DNA of 64,000 nt, from positions 9,426,541-9,490,540 of the forward strand of contig OZ020256.1 of assembly GCA_963971285.1 (NCBI GenBank), in the 5' to 3' direction. The position numbers and the translations under genes were made by a program. Shown one piece after another: positions 12,401 through 63,105 of the stretch; the first letter of the stretch is position 1; each line of letters opens with the position of its first letter. The notes below the pieces were generated by a model. That model saw nothing but the letters and a program-made list of their open reading frames with translations. It did not search any database and was not told the origin of the DNA. This DNA comes from Astropecten irregularis (lineage: Eukaryota; Echinodermata; Asteroidea; Paxillosida; Astropectinidae).

Positions 12401-15400
12401 AACTGGTCATAGTTTTAACAATTCAGGATACAGAGAGCAGAAGGTGCGGGTTTCTAATGTTGTTTTCGTATCAAAACGGAAGAGAATGATGCATAGAAAT
12501 AAAAAAATACTCGACGAGGATGGGATTCGAACCCACGCGTGCAGAGCACAATGGATTAGCAGTCCATCGCCTTAACCACTCGGCCACCTCGTCCGTCGAG
12601 ACTAGATGATGAAGTTTATAATTACAATCAATTTTATTTTGCCAGTCTGTTATTAAGTCCATGGTGGTACAAAGGTTAGTATAAAGTATAGTAAACATGA
12701 TTGTATGCGTCACAAGTTGTTAGGATAATGAATGTTTGAAAAATGAAATATTCATACATTCTATACATTATTTTAATAGGTTAACAGATTTGATTGTTTA
12801 AGTCATTAGGGAAATTGAGACGTTTCATTCTTCTGCTTGAATGAAACAACTGAATAGTTACAATTATTTGACAAAACTCAACAAAACAAAATACAGGCTT
12901 TTAATTTGATGGTTTTAAAGGTGTATTGTAACCAAAAGAATTCACATAGGGTGCATGGAGTTCTCCTAAAACCGCCTTGTAATGTTTTAAGGTAATATAC
13001 TTTTGTCAAAGAAATGCATGCAGGTTCATGGGAAAAATGTCAAGGAAGATACATCTCTGTGAAAGACCAAGTCCCATACAGTGAAAACAGTGAAAAACGC
13101 CAGCAGTTTTTTTTTTTAATCTTTTCACCAATATTTTGATCTTTAAAAGATCAAAATTGTTTTTTGGTTCATTAGCTTTTATACATGGATACAGCATTTC
13201 AGGCAGGAAATTTAATGATATGTTTCTACTCTCACTATCTTTGTTCCTTTGGTAGCATACCGAAACAGAAATCTTAACAGATTTACCTTAAGATTAGGAA
13301 ATTGATAGGAATTGTTGTTAATATGAATAAAGCAAGTAAACTAAGTGCCTGATGTTTGCAATCAATTTGTGTCCGCTTGGTTACAGTATCTTTGATTCTT
13401 TTCGTCATATACAGTCTGAGATGTATGCCGGTACCATCATTATCCAACAAGCTCTCAACTGGAATCTCTATTTAGCTGTTTGTCTGTTGCTGACAATGAC
13501 CGCCCTTTATACGGTAGCTGGCGGTTTAACCGCGGTAATCTATACTGATGCTCTGCAGTCGGTTATCATGATTGGTGGAGCTATTGTTCTATCGGTTATT
13601 GGTAGGTATATTATTGTATGAACTTGGTGATGCTTCAAATAACTGTCCGTATTGGGAGGGAATATGTTTGTACTGTCGACTTTTCATTTGATTTCTTTAA
13701 AGCATTCGTGGAAATAGGCGGACTTGAGAATCTGCATTTGAAATTCATGACGAGTATACCGACTCCGACCTTCTTAGCGGGGAACACATCATGTGGTATT
13801 CCCAAGGAGGAATCCTGGCATATTTTTCGAGATGCAACGACGTCTGACCTGCCGTGGCCCGGAGTTTTATTCGGTATCTTTCTACTGTCTGCCTGGTACT
13901 TCTGTACCAATCAGGTGGGTCTGTGTCTAGATTTGTTCAGAGGACGGGAGTGAAGTTGAGTTAATCTGATTGAACTTCTGAAGATTCCTAATTTTGTTGC
14001 ATGAAATATATTCCTTTTCACGGTTAAGAAGCTAAAAAGCTAAAAAGTTAAAACGAGCACTTGGTTATAATGTGATTTATGAATTTGCGTTCAAATTACA
14101 TGAGGTCTCCTGATGATGACTATAGCAGGTCGAAACGTTGAGACCTAACCAGACGTGCGACGAAATAAAAGTGCGAAAGTAAGAACGAATATTACATGGT
14201 GTTTCCGCAAAGCAATCCATATAAACATGAATATAGGCCTCCACATCACCCAAAATAGTAATCCAAGAAGAGAAATATCCAGACATAGCAGACGTGATAT
14301 TTTGTCTATAAACTTGTACATGATACATACATTGACGCAAAGGTTTTTATCATTTTGATCATATTTTAACATGTGGGGTCAAAAATGTCAGAGCATGAAC
14401 GGAACGGTTAATAATTGTTCTCTTTTGATATTGATAAAATTAATTCTTTATATACAATTCATTCCAATGTAACTATGCCGGAATTTTACATGGACAAACA
14501 AAAAACGAAATACCCACATTATTACAACAGGTTCTGGTGCAGAGATCGTTATCGGCTAAGAATGTGACTCACTCCAAGGCTGGTACCCTGCTAGCAGCTT
14601 TACTGAAGATTCTACCTATGATTCTTATGATATATCCAGGCATGATAAGTAGGGCGCTATGGCCAGGTGAGTGATGCATGGAACAGTCGTATGTGTTTAA
14701 ATACATTTCGTAAAATCATACTCATGCTATTATTCGGGTATTACTTTAAGGTGAATTAAATGAACTTCATATAGTGAACGTCTTAGTGAGAAAACTGACA
14801 AATTCGATGTCATTTTTATTCCTCCCGAAATTAGATTATGTTGCCTGCCAGGATTCTGAAACTTGTTCTAAAGTTTGCGGTAATCCAAACGGTTGTTCAG
14901 ACATCGCTTACATCAGACTGTTGCTTAAACTCATGCCAACAGGTCAGTGTCAATTTATATGAAATCCATGTTTTAAAGTGATAGGATACATTTTGATTCG
15001 TGCTCAAGCATGTATACAGAGAAATATTTCAATGTTCCTTACAATCACCTATAGGCCTATACGGAGCTATATAGGCTGGGTAGGGCCGTGGCAAGACTCG
15101 GTAGAAGAGAGTGTCAAACTTTCCATAGCAATTTTATACAGCGTATTAGAATGAAACATGGCATGGCTGAAGCCTGGCAAACCTGGTTAAGGGTGAATTT
15201 TCGAACATCGTATTCAATACCAATCGTATAAATGAATGAAAATTTAATGCAGTTTTTCCCTATGTAAAAAAACCCCGATGTTGTCGTAATGTGTACCTAA
15301 CTGCAGAATCACGGACAGAATTATACTGTCAATATTAATCAATACATTTTACATGCACTCATTTCAGAGTATAAAAAGTTCTTCCAAATGCCCCTTTTCA

Positions 15401-18400
15401 AGGCAGCTTTGAAAACTCTGTTGAGTGTTTTTTAATAATAATTTTGTACTTTCCCATATCAGTATGGTGCATGCTTGTTATCACCAAGCGGGTGACTGTG
15501 TATCATAATTCATTACTGTAAAGAAATGAAATTGATAGGTCTAACTCATCTAAATACGTTGGCGGTGGTCTCCTTTTTACCAAGGTTAAATAATTATGTG
15601 GAAAGAGGACAGGGCTCTAATTTTTGAGGTAAATTATGGGGTAAAACGGCAACGAAGATGTGACATTTTACAGACGAGACACTTAGCTGAGTATTGGTTC
15701 CCCTATATTCACTGAATGGCTACCCAGACCAAAACGTCGCGTGACGGGACTGACAGGTTCGCAAAAGTGGGTTACAACATTTTGCCAATGAATGAAACAA
15801 ATTCAGACCGTTTGAAATTGAAATCTTTTTTTCCTTGTTCAATGTTCATTGGAAGTGGCGCCCAGTGCACGTGCATGCCCCATTCTGTTGTTGTGTTGTT
15901 TTGTTTCATTTTAATTGAACTGTTTTGTTTCCAGGTCTAAAAGGTTTGATGATGGCAGCCATGCTTGCAGCCTTGATGAGTTCTTTGACGTCAGTTTTCA
16001 ATAGTGCAAGTTCTATAATTACCATGGATTTGTGGATCAAAGCACGACCTCTAGCGACAGAAACAGAACTTGTCATTGTTGGCAGGTAAAGAGCATTTTA
16101 AAACGGAACACAGTAAAACATTGTTTACAATATTAATTTGTAATGCTATAATCACAAACAACGGGCACCGAAATGACGCCCCTGTCAAAACATCAAATAC
16201 CCATCTTTCCGATAATTCAAAATCAGCTTTAAAAAGGAGTCAAGTCGTTTTATAATGATTCAAATTAATAAGATTAATGTGACGTATATTACCCTTTCAA
16301 TCAAATATCACCTTTGAATAATAAATGACACATATATCTGAAAAGCTTAGTTCTTTAGCTTTCATTTAATACATTCATAATTATGATACACACTTCACGC
16401 ATGAATGAATAAAGACAATGAAGCAAGGCTATAAACGTTGTTTTACACAACTATAGTTGACTTAAAAAAAAAATCACATTTCTAAAAAGTACATTTCATA
16501 CCCTTTCAAATGATGCCTCGGTCAGGATAAAATGAGCAAGGGATGGCAGAGATGTTTTGCTTTTGAATATGGATTGAATTTCCATTTTTTGTAATCATTT
16601 GTTTCGTTCACACCTGACCGATTTTTGGCATGAAAGGATGCAGAGATTAAAATAACTTAATCTCGAAAAATAAATGACACATCAAAGCTTAGTTCCCCCT
16701 CTTCCGTACAAAGCTATGCTGATGCAAAATTATGCGTACTTTCCATGACTTATCGTGAATGAATCCGTTTTGGCTGCTTGCCTGTCTTATAGAAATAAAC
16801 AAAGAAAACAGAAGACTGGTAGATGTTCTGCATGTCTGATCGTCAACAAAACATGGGGCGATGTGTTTATCCATATTTCAAGGCAGGACATCTCTGTCAT
16901 CCCTTGGTCAATTTTCTGACTGAGAATCATTTGAAAGGGCAGGAAATGTATTTTCTAGAAATGTGATTATTTCTTTAAAATCAGTTAAGGTTGTGCGAAC
17001 AACTTATTGATAGCCTTGATTCGTATTGTCTTTATTCATTCATGCGTGAAGTGTGTAACATAATTATGAGTGGTACTAATGGTAGTATCATACTTTGGTA
17101 CCATACTGAAACAGAAATCTTCACAGATGTACCTATAACTTACAGGGCATAAAGATGGTGATGGTAGAAACAAACCTTTAATGTTGTTTCTGCCTGAAAT
17201 GCTGTACTTATCGAGAAAAGAGTTAAACTAATGACCCCAAACCATTTTGATCTTTTAAAGATAAAAGATAACAGTGGAAAGACTTAAGAAATACTGTGGG
17301 CGTTTTTCACTGTTTTCAGGGCACCGTATGGGATTGCAAATTTCACAGATTCTTCCTTAATATTTTCGCCCATGGATCTGCAATTCTTTGACAAAAACCG
17401 AAGTATGATATAACCTTTAAATGAAAGATTAAGTTTTTCAGATGTGTGCTAATTCGAAAGTGAAATTTAAGTTTAATTTAACATTGATAAATATCGGTTT
17501 CGTTTTTTTCACTGAGCTAGTTTGGTACTTATCCCACAGGCTATACGTTCTAAAGCGTTCTAAAACAATATATCATCAGTGCGAATACACATTGAAACGG
17601 TTGACTGAATAACACAAAACTTGTTTTGTTGTGTGATGTGCAGATTGTGTACTTTGGTCCTGGCTGCTATAAGCGTGCTGTGGCTACCTTTGATTCAGGT
17701 CTTTGGATCCGGTCAGCTCTTCGTCTATATCCAGTCTATTACATCCTACATGTCTCCACCAATCTTAGCCGTCTACACAGCAGGGATATTCACAGAACGA
17801 GTTACAGAGCCCGTAGGTGGTGGCCATACCCTCAGTTTGTTTCCAAAGTTTCCTTACATTTCAAAGTTGATAAAATGCGCTCCATTTTGATTTCTTTTAT
17901 TCTTCAGTGCAGTTTGCAATTTATATCCCCGATCCTATTTTATTCATACAGGGTGCTTTTTGGGGTCTCCTTCTCGGTGAAGTTGCAGGATGTACTTGGA
18001 TGGTTCTTGATTTTATTTTTCTGGCACCTGCTTGTGGTGGCGTGGACAATCGCCCAATGGCACTTCAGAAAGTCCATTACTTACATTTCGCCATCATAAA
18101 TTATGCAGCTACAACACTGTTCATTGGTGTAATCAGTCTGCTGACTAAACGCATCCCGAGAGAAAAGGTAATGATGTTTCAAAATGTCTCCGTTTACACA
18201 AGTATTAATTGCTCATGATAAAATGAAAATGGTAAATGAACATGGTATTGACTGACATAAGTTGATTGATATTATGAACACTACAAATCAAGAGAATAAC
18301 ACTACACGAATAATGATAAGTGAGAATGACGATAAAGACACCACTGTGTACATGTATTGTGATAATTACTGTGATGATCATGATGAAACGCGGCATGACG

Positions 18401-19644
18401 ATGTAAATGTTGATTATCTTCATATTACAAAAGGGCAGTTATATACAGTTTCCACATTCAGGTATTCAGTAATGGATGAATATAATGTCTTGGTCCACAG
18501 CTGATTAGATTGACTTGGTGGACAAGGAAGAGTAAGTATCCACGTCAGCCCATGTCAGAGAAAGAGAACAAGAAGAACATCGAACGACAACTCAGGAAGA
18601 AACAAATTGCATCAGGAAAACAAAACAGTAAGGTTGAAAATAGTGTCATCGTGCATGTTTGTATATAGCCGTCATGACATTTATGACCGCTTCATGTGCC
18701 AATCACAACCACTAACTGCACCCCGTTATTGCGCACGTCGTGGCAGTTGAATGCTATTATAATACCTTTTTGTTCACTCGATTTCTTCGTACCGTAACTA
18801 AACAAACAAAGAAAGCTTATTCAGAAAAATCATGCCAAAATGTTCGCAGATTTGTGCCACAAAATAATGTAGTCTGGTTCCCGGACCCAAAAAGCTCCCG
18901 ACTATTGTCTGTCAATTTTTTTTAATAAGAGTCGTTAGGGAATCTTTGGGCAGGGAACCAGACTAAAAATAATACGATGTATCGCATGTCACGTCATTGT
19001 GTGTACAGAGGCCTAAATTATATTTGTGCTAACATCGCACATCACAAAACATGCGCAGATATTTGTGAATTTGTGATGTAAGACGTATAAAACATCACAA
19101 ATGTGCCTAGACATTTGTGATATTTGATGTCCCTCCCTATGCGCCACCAGTCTTTGCCGTCTTGCGCATGGTATGCATAGCTAATTTCACGCTGTCAATA
19201 ATGTAACGCGCGCCCCGAGTGTCATGTGTCATGGCGACCGCCACATCTCGCCCTGGGTACGAAACCACACTATACTGCTCTCTACAAAGAAAATAAAAGA
19301 ATTATGTTGAAACATGAAACGACGAATTTCGTAGAAAATATTATGTACGTTTTGGTATTATAGGCTTCAAAACTTAGAGTGACCCAGATTACAAATTTAC
19401 ACATTTTACTTCCACCATTTTGTCTTGGTTTGCAGAGAAACAACCGTCGTATCTACGCAGTGCCTGGAACCTTCTATGTGGCATTGAATCATCCCCACCA
19501 TCTGAAATATCTCAAGAGGAAATGGAAGAGATGGAAATGCGTATGACGTCAATAGCAGAAGATCCAAAGTTGAGCAGATTAGTCAGTCTTGCTTGTCTTG
19601 TCGTCTGCTTTTTAGGCTTTTTGGCTTTCGGATTATTCGCTTGA
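9426..19644 (+). CDS. SLC5 Na+/solute symporter, copy A (SGLT/SMIT2-like)
   Basis: Fourteen exons: 9426-9524, 10241-10312, 10447-10551, 11413-11472, 11597-11701, 13415-13601, 13703-13914, 14531-14666, 14835-14942, 15935-16085, 17644-17812, 17952-18167, 18501-18627, 19436-19644. All borders are GT-AG and phases match; 1956 nt, 651 aa. Family marks: [10 protein letters not shown] (exon 5), [18 protein letters not shown] (exon 6), [20 protein letters not shown] (exon 9), [13 protein letters not shown] (exon 10, sodium-site region) and AWNLLCG before the last membrane segment. The family moves sugars or inositol with Na+ across the plasma membrane; substrate here is unknown. Against human SGLT1, N78, E102, Y290, K321 and Q457 are kept (N66, E90, Y275, K306, Q442), but H83 is S71, T287 is S272, W291 is F276 and D294 is N279. 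Closest match from memory is SLC5A11/SLC5A9. Confidence 0.92.
9806..9860. repeat. fragment of GGGGCCGATTTCA-type foldback element
   Basis: The sequence CTGGGGCCGAATTCATAAAA followed by an ACGCGTCGCAG stretch resembles one end of the foldback element at 39287-39796. It lies in intron 1 of SLC5 copy A. Only one end is recognisable, so it is called a fragment. Confidence 0.5.
11287..11368 (-). tRNA. tRNA-Ser(GCT), intron 3 of SLC5 copy A
   Basis: On the minus strand the gene begins GACGAGGTGGCCGAGTGG, has the anticodon loop CTGCTAA (anticodon GCT, reading AGC/AGU), a long variable arm typical of serine tRNA, the T-arm GGGTTCGAATCCC and the closing stem CCTCGTC with discriminator G. It is 82 nt. 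A run of six T follows about 15 nt downstream on the minus strand, a Pol III terminator. It lies antisense to its host, 44 bp before exon 4. The copies at 12512 and 24268 are identical in sequence. No SINE-like tail is attached. Confidence 0.95.
12512..12593 (-). tRNA. tRNA-Ser(GCT), intron 5 of SLC5 copy A
   Basis: Identical to the gene at 11287-11368, including the anticodon loop CTGCTAA and the long variable arm. On the minus strand it is followed within a few bases by a run of seven T, a strong Pol III terminator. It occupies the intron equivalent to the one holding the third copy in SLC5 copy B, so this position probably predates the duplication of the SLC5 gene. Confidence 0.95.
12987..13292. 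mobile_element. MITE, CATACTTTGGT family, copy 1
   Basis: It begins TTAAGGTAATATACTTTTGT, has a central palindrome near GATCTTTAAAAGATC, and ends CAGATTTACCTTAA, matching the layout of the copies at 17081, 31146, 43617 and 59530. The equivalent intron of SLC5 copy B has the flanking text (GGAGTTCTC, CCGCCTTGTAA) but no element, so B looks like an empty site. Confidence 0.7.
14105..14230 (+). repeat. unclassified dispersed repeat fragment
   Basis: The text GTGCGAAAGTAAGAACGA followed by ATGGTGTTTCCGCAAA recurs on the opposite strand at 28615-28705 (with changes), so this is a dispersed repeat. The preceding TGATGATGACTATAGCAGG and GTCGAAACG resemble text near the 3' ends of some retroelement coding regions, but this is only a suggestion. 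Confidence 0.5.
15570..15665 (+). repeat. dispersed repeat shared with 57480-57610
   Basis: The blocks AAGGTTAAAT, GTGGAAAGAGGACAGGGC and AAATTATGGGGTAAAA occur in the same order on the minus strand at 57480-57610. The copy is in intron 9 of SLC5 copy A. Its class is unknown. Confidence 0.55.
16379..17069. mobile_element. large foldback element in intron 10 of SLC5 copy A
   Basis: The left end AATTATGATACACACTTCAC and the following GCATGAATGAATAAAGACAA reappear as a reverse complement at about 17030-17069 with a single clear mismatch in the first 40 bp. Similarity continues inward (ATTTCATACCCTTTCAAATG against the reverse of CATTTGAAAGGGCAGGAAAT). Arms are roughly 185 bp with about 320 bp between them. 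Confidence 0.7.
17081..17419. mobile_element. MITE, CATACTTTGGT family, copy 2
   Basis: Begins GGTAGTATCATACTTTGGTA and ends AAGTATGATATAACCTTTAA. Its internal blocks match copy 1 and the copies at 31146, 43617 and 59530 in reverse order. It abuts the large foldback element at 16379-17069. Confidence 0.7.
18872..18963. mobile_element. 92-bp MITE with TA target duplication
   Basis: Terminal inverted repeats GTCTGGTTCCC and GGGAACCAGAC, directly flanked by TA on both sides. This fits a small non-autonomous Tc1/mariner-type element. It lies in intron 13 of SLC5 copy A. Confidence 0.7.
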
Positions 19645-21972: not shown

Positions 21973-24900
21973 ATGGATTTGGACTATGATGATACGACTA
22001 ATACCTTAGAAGGATGGGACATTGCTATCATTGTCCTAGTCTTCCTTCTTGTCTTGCTACTTGGAATTTGGGTGAGGCATTGCAAGCATATTAGTTTATC
22101 GCTAAAAGTTTATAGAAATCAAAACTGATCTAAAGGAGGTGTGCTTTTTTCAAACGTATAGGTCTGAATGTATTCAATGACAAAATAATGTTTTCTAAGA
22201 TAACAAATATTTTATCTGAGATTTCGCATGTATAAACTATGTACATGCAGTTGCAGTTGGTGAAAGATTATTTTAACAAAATGGTAATCAATCTGAATAA
22301 TAATAAGAGTAACAATAGACATAATATGATTTGTTTCTTTGATGTGTATTTAATTAACATAATTGGACTGAAATTATGGATGCAATATGTAGGCCCTACT
22401 CCTTAAACAAAACATAGTACACGTCCTGAATAATTATTCAATGACAAGTGATGTAATGATCCGTAGGGTGGCAAAGTCTATCCAGCCTATGATAGTGTTC
22501 TACATTCATGTCTACCACTTACTATGATATTAGTTATGATATTTGATTCTTTAGTCAGCATGGGTGTCGAATCGTGGGACAACCAGTGGCTATTTCCTAG
22601 CTGGTCGGAGCATGTCATGGTGGTTGGTAAGCACAAATTCAAATATTTAGTATTAATGTAATATTATGATATGGAAATAATGTCTGCGATACACGGTGTG
22701 CCTATTGAGGAGCATATTTTCGAATTCATTTACGCCTATATACAACCTGTTTGAATGTTCATTGTCCCTGCATAGGGAACATTCAAATGGGGGGTGGGGG
22801 GGATACAGTCATGACAGAAAGTCAGGTCCCTTACCTCAACTTTCCGCATAGTACAGCAGATTTGCAGGAAAGTGTCGTACCACCGACGAGTGCAACATGA
22901 GTCTTTCATCCATAGCCTGTAATTCTGAAAACGGTTTGAAATCCAAAGACATATTAATTATTCAACTGTTTATAATGTGATGTATGGAATGTTGCGGTAC
23001 AGACAGGGTATACCCGATTATTTTTCTTAGTTAACAGCATCCATATTCAAATTAGGCTTTCCCTTCATCACCGACGTGGATGAGCACTGTACACTCAGTG
23101 CTTGTGAGTGCACGTGAACAAATCACATGCTGGCTCGGGTGGGATTCGAACCCACGACCACCTGCTTACTAGTGCAGATGCCATACCTGCTAGGCCACCG
23201 AACTAGCTGGGGTCAGCGGGGTGAATCGAATCCAATATTTAATATTTAATATTCATGAACATCATGATATTATAATGTTAATTGTCAACTTTTGCCACGT
23301 TTCCAGGTTGGTTTGTCTTTGTATGTCAGCAACATAGGAAGCAGTTCATTCATTGGTTTGGCGGGCACAGCATCAGTTTCTGGCTATGCAGTTATTGCGT
23401 ATGAGTTCCATGTGAGTTACAATTTGAACATTAGACTTGACAGAATGTCTTACTTGCATTATAAATGAGAACACAATTCAACAGATTTTATGTGACACGT
23501 TTGTTTGCAGGGATTGTTCTGCTTAGTCCTTCTTGGTTTTGTCTTCATGCCTGTTTACATCTCAGCAGGGGTGAGGAAACACATCTTTCAATCATTTATT
23601 GTTTTTCTTAAATGGTTTGAAGCAAATCTGCAATAGGTCTATTTACGAACAATATATGAAATGTGAATTGATAAGACCGTGCTACTGCGTATACAAACAA
23701 CACGCCTATCCCATAGTGGCAAAACCCCGTTTTTCTCGCCGACATAATTATAGGATAGGTTAAAGCGTTTTTTGTTTTCATAATTGTGTTTAACATGAAG
23801 GTATTCACCATGCCCGAGTATCTCAAGAAGCGATTTGGAGGCGAGAGGCTGCAAATCCTACTGTCAGTTGTGGCTGTTATCCTCATTGTTCTGACCAACA
23901 TATCGGTAAGAAACATAACCATGCAGCCAATCTTACTTTACAATAAAATAAACCGAAATAAGCCGTAGTTGAGTATGTGAGTCATTGATTCAATTGGTGC
24001 AGAGCACAGTGGACATTTTGCGTTAGCCAATCACCGACTCGGTCAACTCGTGATATCAAAACGCAAGACATAACTGCTTGGGATTGGAAAGGAAATAGGT
24101 TTTGGTGCAGACATTATGCCTTTTCATGGCTGGTTCATTCAGTTTCATCAGTGGAGAATGTATCATAACGTCGGCACACAACCAGCAGAAAGACTTGATA
24201 ATGACAGAAGGGGGAAACTCGCCGCTGTTTACATAATTATTTCAGAAATAATGATGAAAAATATTACCGACGAGGATGGGATTCGAACCCACGCGTGCAG
24301 AGCACAATGGATTAGCAGTCCATCGCCTTAACCACTCGGCCACCTCGTCCTTACATCATTATGCTCTGTAACTAAACGAATTCACATACTGCAAATTCAT
24401 TTGGTTTCTTAATAAAGGGTGTATGGAGTTCTCCCAAAGCCGCCTTGTAAAATTTAACCTTTACTGACTTCCCGGGGAATTATGGTCATAATAGTAATGT
24501 GTGTATATAAGGCAAGTAAACTAAGTGCCTGATGTTTGCAATCAATTTGTGTCCGCTTGGTTACAGTATCTTTATTCTTTTCGTCATATACAGTCTGAGA
24601 TGTATGCCGGTACCATCATTATCCAACAAGCTCTCAACTGGAATCTCTATTTAGCTGTTTGTCTGCTGCTGACAATGACCGCCCTTTATACGGTAGCTGG
24701 CGGTTTAACCGCGGTAATCTATACTGATGCTCTGCAGTCGGTTATCATGATTGGTGGAGCTATAGTTCTATCGGTTATTGGTAGGTATATAGTATTGTAT
24801 GAACTTGGTGAAGCTTCAAATAACTGTCCGTATTTATGGAGGGAATATGTTTGTACTGTCGACTTTTCATTTGATTTCTTTAAAGCATTCGTGGAAATAG

Positions 24901-27900
24901 GCGGACTTGAGAATCTGCATTTGAAATTCATGACGAGTATACCGACTCCGACCTTCTTAGCGGGGAACACATCATGTGGTATTCCCAAGGAGGAATCCTG
25001 GCATATTTTCCGAGATGCAACGACGTCTGACCTGCCGTGGCCCGGAGTTTTATTCGGTATCTTTCTACTGTCTGCCTGGTACTTCTGCACCAATCAGGTG
25101 GGTCTGTGTCTAGATTTGTTCAGAGACGGGAGTGAATTTGATTTAATCTTATTGCACTTCTGCTAATTTGTTGCATGAGAGCCTTATCAAAATTAGGTTC
25201 AAAATAATGATATTTTCTAAATGGGAACCGTTTTATGAGGCTTTTAAGGAAACTGAACCTGAGTTTGCAATATTCCTGAAAATAAATTTTTTTGGGAGAT
25301 AAATTCATTGAATATGATTACCTTAATCAGTTATAATTACTTTTAATTAGTTGATAGGGATTTAGTTGATAACGATGGCATTGGATACGTTGCTCTAAAA
25401 TTATGAAGCACTTGCGAAACAATACAAACAATTAATTTTCGCGAGAAAGCTGTCAATGATAGGTTGTTTGGTTGAAATTGGATCATGATTAAGCATTTCT
25501 GTTATATCAATTACAAGGGTACTTATGAGTACATGGGTCAAATATAAAAACGAAATGCACACATTATTACAACAGGTTCTGGTGCAGAGATCGTTATCGG
25601 CTAAGAATGTGACTCACTCCAAGGCTGGTACCCTGCTAGCAGCTTTACTCAAGATTCTACCTATGATTCTCATGATATATCCAGGCATGATAAGTAGGGC
25701 GCTATGGCCAGGTGAGTGATGCATGAAACAGTCGTATATATATATTTAAATACATTTGTAAAATCACACATTCATGCTATTAATCGGGAATTACTTTAAG
25801 TCGAATTTAATCCATCAACAAGTTGAATTCAACTTCATTGCAGAGTGAACGTCTACGTGAAAAAATTGAAAAAGACTTATTCTATGTCATTTGTTCCTCC
25901 CGAAATTAGATTATGTTGCCTGCCAGGATTCTGAAACTTGTTCTAAAGTTTGCGGTAATCCAAACGGTTGTTCAGACATCGCTTACATCAGACTGCTGCT
26001 TAAACTCATGCCAACAGGTCAGCTATAATAATACAACAATCTTTCCAGTCATAATCTTGCTCAGTTTGATACACAAATCATTCAATATTTTTTCTGAATG
26101 TTTCAGTTCACATGACGTCCACACAGACATCGACCCGACCGTCATTTTTGTATGCTCTGAAAATAAATACATAAAAATGCATAACAATCATTGGAACCTA
26201 TAATTTCAAAAATTTAATAATTATACGTTTGCCATTAATTTCCCCTTTTCTGCATAATAAGACACAAATTGCGTATAAAGTCCAGATTTTTGTGAATGCA
26301 TTTACTCTCCTGTCGAAGATGCTTATCCCCCACCATGTCACTTCCTTCTGTTAGGTTTGAAAGGTTTGATGATGGCATCCATGTTGGCGGCTTTGATGAG
26401 TTCTCTGACGTCTGTTTTTAACAGTGCCAGTTCTATTCTGACTTTAGACCTGTGGACCAAAGTGCGTCCACTTGCTAGTGAAATGGAACTCGTTATAGTC
26501 GGCAGGTAAAAACACACCATCACGGTATGGAATTCCATCTCTTCCATATTGCAGCGAATATTGGGCCGTTCTTGTATTATACTTTAGTACGACAAATCGT
26601 TGCGCGTAGCGGCGACTCATGCAACGGCAAGATAGTGACACGGAACTCCGCCTTCAAACCACTGGTGTCGATTTCTTTTCATGATTGGGTGGGATGATTG
26701 GTGATTTGGTGTCCTATGCGAGGGAGCGAAGCGACCGAGCGGGGGGGAGGCTGTGGGAGGTGGGATACCCCCCTCCCAAACCAGGGACTTTTTAATTGAC
26801 AATTGACAACAGTTGACCGTATTCAGAAGAATTAAACATAGTATGAATTCACTGCGAAGACACAAAAACAACGATGGTCATATGTAATATACAATAAACT
26901 TGAATGACATTCAACCTCGAAATATTGGGGGGGGGGGGGGGGGGTGATAATGCACTCCATCCCACACCTCAAATATTGGGGGGATATATCCCCCCGGGAT
27001 CGACACCCATGCTTCAAGCCATCGAGTAAGTCGCCGCAACGATGTGTCACAGTGTCAATAATGATAGGCCTACACCATAACAGTATGACTATTTCAAAAT
27101 GTAAGGACATCTCGACAACATTTTAAACGGACACATAACATGTTGCGGCGACTTAAGCCCACCGCACACTATACGATCCGACTACGACCCGACTGGTTTT
27201 TGGAAGGATCGCAAAGCATCCTGGGAGTCTTAACCGTGATTCGACAATATTGCCTACTGGCCATCAGAGTGGGTCTGCGACTGGGAACAATCACGGTTAA
27301 GACTCCCAGAATGCTTTGCGATCCTTCCAAAAACCAGTCGGGTCCTAGTCGGAATGTCGATCGTATAGTGTGCGGTGGGCTTTACTCGACGGAAAGATAC
27401 GATGCGACGGGGTCGTCGAGCCGTCGCGTCGTATCTTGCCGTCGCATGTGGAAGTCGCGACGCTTGTCGTAAAATAGTATACAAGGAAGATTCCTTATAT
27501 CTTATAATGAGATAAGTTATACAATTAATAACCTGTGAACATTTATTTTCTTCTGATCTCAAAAATCATGTGATATTCCCCTGCAAAGGTCGGCGAGGTT
27601 TATTGTGTGAGTTGACATTACAATGCGTTAACGTCGAATGATAAGTGGATTTGATATCGATATTCTTTCTTGATTCTTTATTCAGATTATTCACTATTAT
27701 CCTAGCTGTCATCAGCGTGTTATGGCTACCATTAATCCAACTCTTTGGATCCGGTCAACTTTTCGTCTACATTCAGTCAATATCATCCTACATGTCACCA
27801 CCAATCTTTGCCGTCTACACCACGGGAATGTTTTCTGAGCGCATCACAGAGCCGGTCAGTTCCTACAGGGATAGTTTCAGAGTTTGTATTGTGGGCCGGG

Positions 27901-30805
27901 CAGGGACATCGCACCTCTCAAATATCCAAGCAGATTGGGCTCTTCCAATAGTTCAATGGCTCAGTTGAGTTGTCCTCCGAATCAATCATGGGCAGTAGTC
28001 CCTAAATCATAATTGGCTAGAGATTTCCCCAAACCTGGACTATTCAAAAAGAGAACATATTAAAATGCAGTTTTTGACGGGGCAGGGTGGGGAAATAAAA
28101 AGAAACTATACATCTCTAATGATTACGGCCAAATCTGAATAATGAGATACGAATAATGGTCATCGCTTATGTCTCACAATGTTAAGGAAACACAAATATT
28201 TTGGCCGATTTATAAGGTATCGTTCATAATGATTTAATGAGATTGAATTGAAAATGTTGTATTTATTTACTTTCCTTGTTAGGGAGCTTTTTGGGGCCTG
28301 CTTCTCGGCGAGGTGACAGGCATCACTTGGATGATCCTTGATTTTATCTTCCAAGCTCCTCCTTGCGATGGAGTGGATGATCGTCCTCTAGCCCTTCAGA
28401 AAATACATTATTTACATTTCGCTCTGATGAACTATGCAGCCACTGTGTGTTTCATCGTCATCATTAGTCTTTTGACTAAACGAATTCCACGCGAAAAGGT
28501 AAATGGTGAAAGCTGAGACATCGGTGATGAAGGTGATGGTGATGGTGATGGTGGCTTTGACTTCTGACGATAAATATGGTTTCAAGAAAGATTTGAGGTT
28601 TTGCATGGTAACAGTTGGTTTGTGGATCGGTTTGCAGAAACACCATAAATAATCGTTCGTACTTTCGCACTTCTGATTTCGTTCGCACTTCTCGTAAGGT
28701 GGTTTCGTTGTGGTGACCACGGGTGCATGATGGGGATGGTTTTGAGGGCGGAGAGTGTGGGATTACAAGTCTGGTGATAAATATGGTGTCATGGAGTCAT
28801 CATAAATATCTTTATGTCTGCAATTTGCACATTTAAAAAGAAGAATGGACAAATGAGTTTCCTCTGATGTTGACCACATTGTACCCAATTGTTTCTTAGC
28901 TGATTAGATTGACCACATTGTACCCAATTGTTTCTGAGCTGATTAGATTGACCACATTGTACCCAATTGTTTCTGAACTGATTAGATTGACCACATTGTA
29001 CCCAATTGTTTCTTAGCTGATTAGATTGACCACATTGTACCCAATTGTTTCTTAGCCGATTAGATTGACCACATTGTACCCAATTGTTTCTGAGCTGATT
29101 AGATTGACCACATTGTACCCAATTGTTTCTGAGCTGATTAGATTGACCACATTGTACCCAATTGTTTCTTAGCTGATTAGATTGACCACATTGTACCCAA
29201 TTGTTTCTTAGCCGATTAGATTGACCACATTGTACCCAATTGTTTCTGAGCTGATTAGATTGACCACATTGTACCCAATTGTTTCTTAGCTGATTAGATT
29301 GACCACATTGTACCCAATTGTTTCTTAGCCGATTAGATTGACCACATTGTACCCAATTGTTTCTTAGCTGATTAGATTGACCACATTGTACCCAATTGTT
29401 TCTTAGCTGATTAGATTGACCACATTGTACCCAATTGTTTCTTAGCTGATTAGATTGACCACATTGTACCCAATTGTTTCTTAGCTGATTAGATTGACCA
29501 CATTGTACCCAATTGTTTCTTAGCTGATTAGATTGACGACATTGTACCCAATTGTTTCTTAGCTGATTAGATTGACCACATTGTACCCAATTGTTTCTTA
29601 GCTGATTAGATTGACCACATTGTACCCAATTGTTTCTTAGCCGATTAGATTGACCACATTGTACCCAATTGTTTCTGAGCTGATTAGATTGACCACATTG
29701 TACCCAATTGTTTCTTAGCCGATTAGATTGACCACATTGTACCCAATTGTTTCTTAGCTGATTAGATTGACCACATTGTACCCAATTGTTTCTTAGCCGA
29801 TTAGATTGACCACATTGTACCCAATTGTTTCTTAGCTGATTAGATTGACCACATTGTACCCAATTGTTTCTTAGCCGATTAGATTGACCACATTGTACCC
29901 AATTGTTTCTTAGCTGATTAGATTGACCACATTGTACCCAATTGTTTCTTAGCTGATTAGATTGACCACATTGTACCCAATTGTTTCTTAGCTGATTAGA
30001 TTGACCACATTGTACCCAATTGTTTCTTAGCTGATTAGATTGACCACATTGTACCCAATTGTTTCTTAGCTGATTAGATTGACGACATTGTACCCAATTG
30101 TTTCTTAGCTGATTAGATTGACCACATTGTACCCAATTGTTTCTTAGCTGATTAGATTGACCACATTGTACCCAATTGTTTCTTAGCTGATTAGATTGAC
30201 CACATTGTACCCAATTGTTTCTTAGCTGATTAGATTGACCTGGTGGACCAGAAAATGTCAGCTTCCGCGGAAACCAATGTCAGAACAGGAAAACAAGAAA
30301 AACATAGAACGGGAAAACAAGAAGCGGGCAATTGCTTACGAGAAACAAAGTGGTAAGAACACAACAAATAATGATTAGAATTATTCTATCTTTTAAATAA
30401 TTACTCTGCTTATTTGCAATGAAGACTGACGGTTTGTCCCAGACTTTTTGCTTTTGTTTTGAAAGAAATATCAGCTTCTCGGTACATCACATGTTTTGAC
30501 AATTGTATTGACGGAATAGATGGAAATTAATTTGTCTTCATCTGTTTCAACTGTATTTACTTGTATATTTACTGGTAATAATTATATTTCTTTCAGTTGA
30601 ACCACCGTCTGGTTTTCGCCGCGCCTGGAACCTTTTGTGTGGACTTGATACATCCACACCACCGGACCTTACTAAGGACGAACTGGACGAGATGGAAAAA
30701 CGAATGACGTCACTGGAAGAAGATCCAAAGTGGGCACGGATTGTCAACGTTGCCTGCTTGGTCGTTCTTTTCATTGGTTACGTGGCTTTTGGATTATTTG
30801 CATAG
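21973..30805 (+). CDS. SLC5 Na+/solute symporter, copy B (SGLT/SMIT2-like)
   Basis: Fourteen exons: 21973-22071, 22555-22626, 23307-23411, 23511-23570, 23801-23905, 24594-24780, 24886-25097, 25576-25711, 25910-26017, 26355-26505, 27686-27854, 28283-28498, 30226-30352, 30597-30805 (TAG). Every exon equals its counterpart in copy A in length; 651 aa. The ATG at 21973 aligns with the start of copy A; an in-frame ATG at 21964 is a less likely alternative. Same family marks as copy A, including the unusual GSSSFIG and WYFCTNQ. The residue matching SGLT1 T460 is Ser (QSISSY) where copy A has Thr. Exon 3 and exons 6-9 are nearly identical to copy A, other exons clearly diverged. Intron 6 is 105 nt with no in-frame stop, so its retention would add 35 residues. 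Intron 12 carries the 39-bp array that duplicates its own splice acceptor. Confidence 0.92.
23050..23220 (-). mobile_element. tRNA-derived SINE, family 2, copy 2
   Basis: On the minus strand it shows the same head as the copy at 20441 (AGCTAGTTCGGTGGCCTAGC, box B GGGTTCGAATCCCACC) and a tail with GCACTCACAAGCACTGAG that differs more. It lies in intron 2 of SLC5 copy B. Confidence 0.7.
24268..24349 (-). tRNA. tRNA-Ser(GCT), intron 5 of SLC5 copy B
   Basis: Same 82-nt sequence as the genes at 11287 and 12512, with GCT anticodon, long variable arm and closing stem CCTCGTC. A run of five T follows on the minus strand. Antisense in intron 5 of SLC5 copy B, the counterpart of the intron holding the 12512 copy. 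Flanking sequences differ, so identity is confined to the tRNA gene. Confidence 0.95.
26640..26990. repeat. G-rich low-complexity patch in intron 10 of SLC5 copy B
   Basis: Contains GAGGGAGCGAAGCGACCGAG, a phrase common in dispersed repeats, several runs of C and G, and an uninterrupted run of about 18 G at 26927-26944. No coding potential is evident. Confidence 0.5.
27156..27381. mobile_element. foldback MITE with TTA target duplication
   Basis: Arms of about 90 bp: the left opens AGCCCACCGCACACTATACG and the right closes CGTATAGTGTGCGGTGGGCT. The loop is about 45 bp. TTA flanks both ends directly, the signature of PIF/Harbinger-type (Tourist) elements. It sits in intron 10 of SLC5 copy B. 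A separate short hairpin follows at 27388-27443, and the outer words GTCGCCGCAAC (about 27030) and GTTGCGGCGAC (about 27141) form another inverted pair. Confidence 0.75.
28615..28705 (-). repeat. unclassified dispersed repeat fragment, second copy
   Basis: On the minus strand it reads GTGCGAAAGTACGAACGA and then ATGGTGTTTCTGCAAACC, matching the fragment at 14105-14230. It lies in intron 12 of SLC5 copy B, left of the 39-bp array. Confidence 0.5.
28871..30240 (+). repeat. 39-bp tandem array carrying a copied 3' splice site
   Basis: About 35 units of 39 bp. Each unit has CTGATTAGATTGACC (the first 15 coding bases of exon 13), then ACATTGTACCC, then AATTGTTTCTTAG (pyrimidine tract and acceptor). 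The exon-edge word starts at 28900 and repeats every 39 bp to 30226, where the last copy runs on into exon 13 (TGGTGG). Variants: CTGAG instead of CTTAG in several units, CTGAA in one (acceptor AG lost), CCGATT for CTGATT, and GACGAC for GACCAC. Copy A has a plain 333-bp intron here with the same exon edge but no array. Confidence 0.97.
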
Positions 30806-62439: not shown

Positions 62440-63105
62440 GGGATAATTGTAACGGTTAACCCTTGGTCTGACATGGGGACCTGGACCATGACCATTGTCA
62501 GACCATAGAGCTAGGGATTACAAGTCAACTCGCCCCCTAGCTGACTCGCCCCTTACCGACTCGCCCCTTACCAACTCGCCCCCTGACCGACTCGCCCCCT
62601 GACCGACTCGCCCCTTACCAACTCGCCTCCTAGCCGACTCGCCCCCTGACCGACTCGCCCCCTGGCCAACTCGCCCCCTAATTTATTCAGAAATGAGATG
62701 CAAAATGCGAAGTTAATTAGGCATCATAATTAATAACCAAATGCTTCTCACCCTTTTGTAGGGCCTACATCGTCATAAGGACAAAAACACAAAATTCAGC
62801 CAGGGGGCGAGTCGGTCAGGGGGCGAGTCGGCTAGGGGGCGAGTCGGCCAGGGGGCGAGTCGGGCAGGAGGCGAGTTGGTCAGGGGCGAGTCGGTCAGGG
62901 GGCGAGTCGGTCAGGGGGCGAGTCGGTAGGAAGCTCTATAGTCAGACAAGGGTTATAATTAAGAGAAGAGAATTACACTTGATTCAGTTGACACTGATTA
63001 GTGATTACCAAGTCCCATAATCTGTTTGTTGCAATGATCGTAAAATGGGAACATGGCCCTAACGTCCCCATGTCAGACCAGGGGTTATTACAATTATCAC
63101 AACTA
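62440..63105. mobile_element. foldback element with inverted minisatellite arms
   Basis: Outer ends TTGGTCTGACATGGGGAC and GTCCCCATGTCAGACCAG match those of the element at 57848. Inside, about ten units of about 16 bp, consensus GACTCGCCCCCTGACC, run from 62526 to 62680, and about eight units in reverse orientation run from 62800 to 62929, separated by about 120 bp. Inner flanks GAGCTAGGG and GAAGCTCTATAGTCAGACAA are also partly inverted. Confidence 0.85.

Follow-up and report, generated by a model that had tools for sequence, protein, structure and literature searches.

A tandem array copying the 3' splice site and exon edge of an intron in an SGLT-like gene, probably a mirage-type minisatellite in an echinoderm

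The window analyzed here is the whole 64,000-bp stretch of DNA C20:9426541-9490540, taken from one assembled haplotype of a 475.7-Mb genome. It contains two tandem genes of the sodium/glucose cotransporter (SGLT, SLC5) type, referred to as copy A and copy B. Copy B combines an SSF domain (PF00474, E 3.5e-26) at window positions 24525-25163 with an SGLT-type C-terminus, and two exon stretches other than exons 12-14 match PF00474. When joined, exons 12-14 (Table 1) align over all 183 residues with the C-terminal part of the solved sodium/glucose cotransporter 1 (SGLT1; E 6e-30), with the exon 12/13 junction lying within a gapless stretch of that alignment. Together with the same intron position in two paralogues, the SGLT1 alignment makes the predicted acceptor at 30225, whose AG occupies 30224-30225, well supported; protein homology is also what predicts that this last acceptor is the one used.

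Table 1. Features of the SGLT-like locus and its tandem array, in window positions
Feature	Position	Strand	Basis or remark
Exon 13 of the tandem paralogue copy A	18501..18627	+	junction 18167/18501 same as in copy B
Exon 12, copy B, 72 codons, GAFWG...RIPREK	28283..28498	+	gapless with SGLT1 across the exon end
Intron 12, copy B, 1727 nt (401 nt minus the 34 extra units)	28499..30225	+	donor AAG/GTAAAT, acceptor TTAG
39-bp array, 35 full gapless units	28870..30234	+	TRF and unit-by-unit reading
Intronic TTGACC that opens the array on its 5' side, one partner in the 6-bp microhomology	28870..28875	+	unit-by-unit reading
True 3' splice site: TTGAC, pyrimidine tract, TAG	30196..30225	+	branch point predicted from its motif only
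Exon 13, copy B, 127 nt, LIRLTWWTR..., purine-rich body	30226..30352	+	homology to SGLT1
Terminal TTGACC, 6-bp partial unit 36, Leu-Thr codons of exon 13, exonic microhomology partner	30235..30240	+	unit-by-unit reading
Exon 14, the final coding exon; encodes the last membrane segment and the stop	30597..30805	+	homology to SGLT1

The 64 exon matches to PF00474 in the genome suggest several SGLT-like loci. The homologous intron was read fully in two paralogues. In copy A, intron 12 (18168-18500, 333 nt) contains no array according to TRF, and the C23 paralogue, which has the same exon 12/13 boundary (LIRTTWWTR), is free of tandem arrays over the 2501 bases read. At a third locus (L042), exon 12 was found; exon 13 did not lie within the 2001 bases fetched, and TRF reported no array there. 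Exons 11-14 of copies A and B are 53-79% identical, while the translated identity of their middle exon stretches (window 13345-13941 and 24525-25124) is 97-100%, with one short piece at 87%. This excess in the middle exons suggests gene conversion between the tandem copies.

Intron 12 of copy B ends in a tandem array, for which TRF gives a 39-bp period at 28870-30240 with 35.2 copies, 97% match and 0% indels. The first-pass annotation had described about 35 gapless copies of a 39-bp unit running up to the true exon 13, and reading unit by unit agrees: 35 full units are followed by TTGACC. Its location for the array holds as well, although the start is at 28870, one base before the 28871 it gave, and the donor is at 28499, as it had proposed. 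Each unit is made up of a TTGAC branch-point-like motif, a pyrimidine tract, an acceptor position and an exon edge, amounting to 24 intronic and 15 coding-derived bases, so that the exon-intron boundary is spanned. The coding-derived part, CTGATTAGATTGACC, does correspond to the first 15 bases of exon 13, and it recurs after each acceptor. When the genome was searched with up to 3 mismatches, the unit gave 35 matches, all in this array (repeat counts from the search are lower bounds), with no second allele of the array among them. The unit read backwards gave 0 genome matches, which argues that the array is no chance tract. A 496-aa open frame on the minus strand (window 28792-30279) crosses the array and consists of repeats of a 13-residue peptide; we give it no weight, as such a frame is expected when the 39-bp unit happens to contain no stop on that reading.

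Variation among the units is sparse and patterned. Tallied from the unit-by-unit reading, 16 of 1365 array cells are variant (1.17%), all at four unit positions: 6 units carry T28G, one of which also has G30A, while T32C occurs in 7 units and C6G in 2. Within the copies of CTGATTAGATTGACC, this appears as a T>C change of the second base in 7 units and a C>G change of the last base (unit position 6) in units 18 and 32. Twenty of the 35 units, including units 1 and 35, are identical to the consensus. The variant code of units 11-19 equals that of units 25-33, a 9-unit block whose length is reached in 29 of 5000 shuffles, and this order of variants suggests a later block duplication. With few variant cells, four variable positions and a repeated block, the array has the marks of concerted evolution.

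Across the 34 copies that precede the true acceptor, the acceptor position reads TAG 28 times, GAG 5 times and GAA once (unit 3), which confirms the earlier count of 33 copies keeping AG. What does not hold is the reading of this retention, or of the GAG variants, as a pointer to tuning. AG cells are variant in 1 of 70 cases (1.4%), much like the remaining array, so AG is not specially preserved; homogenization alone would give its retention. Three of the four variable positions sit close together, in a 5-bp span at the acceptor; a grouping this tight turned up in 9% of random draws, and selection on the acceptor positions was set aside as unsupported. GAG acceptors are disfavored in metazoan introns. 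The GAG units had been described as losing the stop while keeping the acceptor: the stop is indeed removed, but the site is probably weakened too.

Use of any upstream acceptor would lead into an in-frame stop, as the first-pass annotation had proposed. In the exon frame, a stop is met from 34 of 34 upstream positions after 12, 25 or 38 codons, and even unit 3, which has lost its AG, reads into one. The reading product is a 12-residue peptide (or one with PIRLT...), sometimes extended through GAG units before the stop. Such stops follow whenever a TAG acceptor recurs at a spacing that is a multiple of three. The nearest precedes the exon 13/14 junction by 127 nt; the usual decay rule requires 50-55 nt, and it could therefore apply to transcripts spliced at upstream acceptors. 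A protein made from such a transcript would, judging from the SGLT1 alignment, end before the last membrane segment, which exon 14 encodes, a consequence that had likewise been foreseen.

But how would the last acceptor be chosen reliably? This puzzle, already raised from the sequence, is a real one. With the true site included, 34 AG acceptors would face the spliceosome; the 33 upstream ones, 5 of which are GAG, would be decoys. Nine of the 34 upstream sites (units 14, 15, 16, 19, 28, 29, 30, 33 and 34) match the true site letter for letter between -54 and +15, so that a preference over these can only arise from position and exon context beyond that stretch. The body of exon 13 contains 17.0 GAA/AGA/AAG per 100 nt versus 2.6 in the array, a count that serves as a proxy for enhancers only, and 4 of 1278 overlapping window stretches reach its purine count, exon 13's own region being among those scanned. 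Exon 13 of copy A has 21.4 per 100 nt. Purine richness is no general exon mark, since exon 12 of copy B (3.2) lies below the non-array remainder of intron 12 (5.7). Of the nine donor consensus positions, the two GT sites of the unit match 4, donor 12 matches 8 and donor 13 a moderate 6. The branch-point pattern is yUnAy; TTGAC fits it and places its A 26 nt ahead of the final base of the intron. A second candidate, CTGAT, is found 35 nt away, within the exon-derived part that precedes; both are motif matches only. Hiding of the upstream sites by RNA structure was considered and rejected: folding of 29962-30352 gives a z of -0.37, which is nothing unusual.

The simplest account of last-site choice would be exon definition across the 127-nt purine-rich exon. 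Only the last acceptor adjoins the purine-rich exon 13 body, with the donor of that exon just 127 nt away, and for this reason it would win in most cases; the array would then be excised with the intron and be close to neutral. Perhaps there is some leakage to the nearest upstream acceptors, yielding a premature-stop transcript: upstream sites are transcribed first, and some may be used.

On balance, we consider it likely that the array is a mirage-type minisatellite, born by duplication across the intron-exon boundary, near-neutral, and tolerated as exon definition favors the last acceptor. The stops and the identical sites could also serve a splicing rheostat, in which a fraction of the transcripts takes upstream acceptors and runs into a stop, resulting in decay or a truncated transporter, with array length or splicing factors setting that fraction. 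In keeping with this, all 34 upstream positions (33 with AG) read into a stop that precedes the last junction by 127 nt or more, and 9 sites match the true one from -54 to +15. However, acceptor and stop show no sign of selection, with AG cells varying as elsewhere in the array, the stops follow from the divisibility of the unit, and the homologous intron of copy A and the C23 stretch both do without an array, which makes the rheostat unlikely. A regulatory role is thus possible but unsupported, and its most elaborate form, a length-tunable splicing governor where array length would set the full-length output of copy B while that of copy A is fixed, strikes us as distinctly improbable.

Two further explanations question the array or its host. 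The near-identity of the units and the repeated 9-unit block are what an assembly or copy-number artefact might look like, in which the assembler would have expanded the array or its natural length would differ in either direction; but 1365 bp of array inside an 18.8-Mb contig, no N in the window, variants interspersed among the units and clean edges speak against it, and we hold it to be very unlikely. Even less credible is that exon 13 of copy B is unused and the gene decaying, leaving the array free to grow. Nothing direct points this way, beyond the existence of a second tandem copy A, whereas exons 12-14 are open, SGLT motifs and splice signals are kept, and the alignment to SGLT1 is full-length.

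How, then, could the favored boundary minisatellite have begun? TTGACC stands at both array edges, a 6-bp overlap with a chance probability of 0.0013. We infer that the first duplicate arose by slippage or end-joining between the intronic, branch-point-like TTGACC and the exonic TTGACC of the Leu-Thr codons; joining these two would explain why the unit is a full acceptor module, and unequal exchange would then have expanded the array. Given paralogues without the array and no other match found in the genome, an origin in place is probable. The alternative, that a dispersed satellite was inserted, was rejected, as the genome search gave no other match to the unit (at most 3 mismatches; repeat counts are lower bounds). 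Minisatellites are common in this genome, so that some should straddle exon edges by chance: counting arrays in which a 15-100-bp unit occurs five times or more, there are 4 in 14 stretches (140 kb) and 5 in the window. This base rate comes from 13 stretches at round, non-random positions plus one chosen for its gene (L022), and the 140-kb count covers arrays of at least 80 bp.

The window has further arrays. Downstream of a mitochondrial carrier exon, two arrays of ~16-bp units (62526-62680 and 62801-62930) sit in opposite orientation about 120 bp apart, with ACTCGCCCCCTACCG and its near complement as units. Upstream of a kelch-motif exon, a 19-bp array of 49 copies (1131-2061) leaves the three plus-strand frames open or almost open, with a stop near 1541 in one of them.

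Boundary arrays have precedents in amphioxus. According to the accessible portions of two papers (PMC3087553, PMC3902484), mirages are minisatellite-like duplications of intron-exon boundaries with their splice signals, found in Adh3, the globins BflGb6 and BflGb9, TnC and PGBD5; they have 10-160 bp units, concerted evolution and length instability, and undisturbed splicing is reported. As in mirages, the copy B array repeats a splice site together with an exon edge in tandem (same portions of PMC3087553 and PMC3902484), its splice signals recur in many copies, AG being kept in 33 of 34, and its 39-bp unit falls inside the minisatellite range of ~10-160 bp that the accessible text of PMC3087553 gives. 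Unlike BflGb6, which has 6 and 3 copies in two haplotypes, copy B has 35, and while the array edges of BflGb6 are reported to be excluded from concerted evolution (PMC3087553), the edge units 1 and 35 here equal the consensus. Compared with the mirages as far as PMC3087553 and PMC3902484 could be consulted, every upstream copy here reads into a stop, and an array-free paralogue adjoins.

Other systems are related more loosely. In recently duplicated human genes, internal tandem repeats at exon-intron boundaries can change splicing; half of the internal repeats are in coding exons, and boundary ones can form novel introns (PMC2812944, from the available excerpt). In contrast, the exon is unchanged here, and the extra units belong to an intron that is found at the same position in the paralogues. 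NAGNAG tandem acceptors similarly have several acceptors competing for one donor, but there two sites are three bases apart (PMC3250501, available excerpt), whereas copy B has 34 AG sites at 39-base spacing. Among the matches listed for boundary repeats, sea stars and echinoderms, a body of text with most subscription literature outside it, there was no echinoderm case.

An amphioxus host, suspected on account of the mirages, was considered but not favored, and we do not treat the host group as a defining trait of mirages. The ADH3-like gene of this genome (L022) has no such array, only three short repeat rows, and none of its exon pieces reached the family cut-off; the GFP family gave no match in a genome search run without a positive control. 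The mitochondrial COX1 (C168, 16,335 bp) is best read with AAA as Asn (NTTFFDP) and ATA as Ile. Reading AAA as Asn in this motif corresponds to the echinoderm-type code, which flatworms share. At least 18 contigs of the assembly exceed 13 Mb, and the host is suggested to be an echinoderm, perhaps a sea star. Other COX1 stretches differ: L027 (C25:9951047-9952018, on a 14.4-Mb contig) contains 7 TGA codons and is probably a nuclear copy of mitochondrial DNA, and an uninterrupted COX1 gene (552-aa frame; L025, C131, 102,890 bp), like an uninterrupted SSF gene (601-aa frame; C149:98229-99554), looks bacterial, so that some contigs of the assembly may come from symbionts or contaminants.

Finally, we would like to place the array in a broader context. 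Its edges suggest that 6 bp shared by exon codons and a branch-point-like motif gave rise to it, and the locus offers a natural experiment on whether exon definition alone picks the last among many equal acceptors. Should the governor prove true after all, nearly every unit would be a poison acceptor in an array whose length could be changed by unequal exchange, even within a body. The array is probably of the mirage kind already described in amphioxus, here long and in a new host group, and mirage-type arrays, placed in cephalochordates by the accessible parts of PMC3087553 and PMC3902484, would thereby probably extend to an echinoderm.
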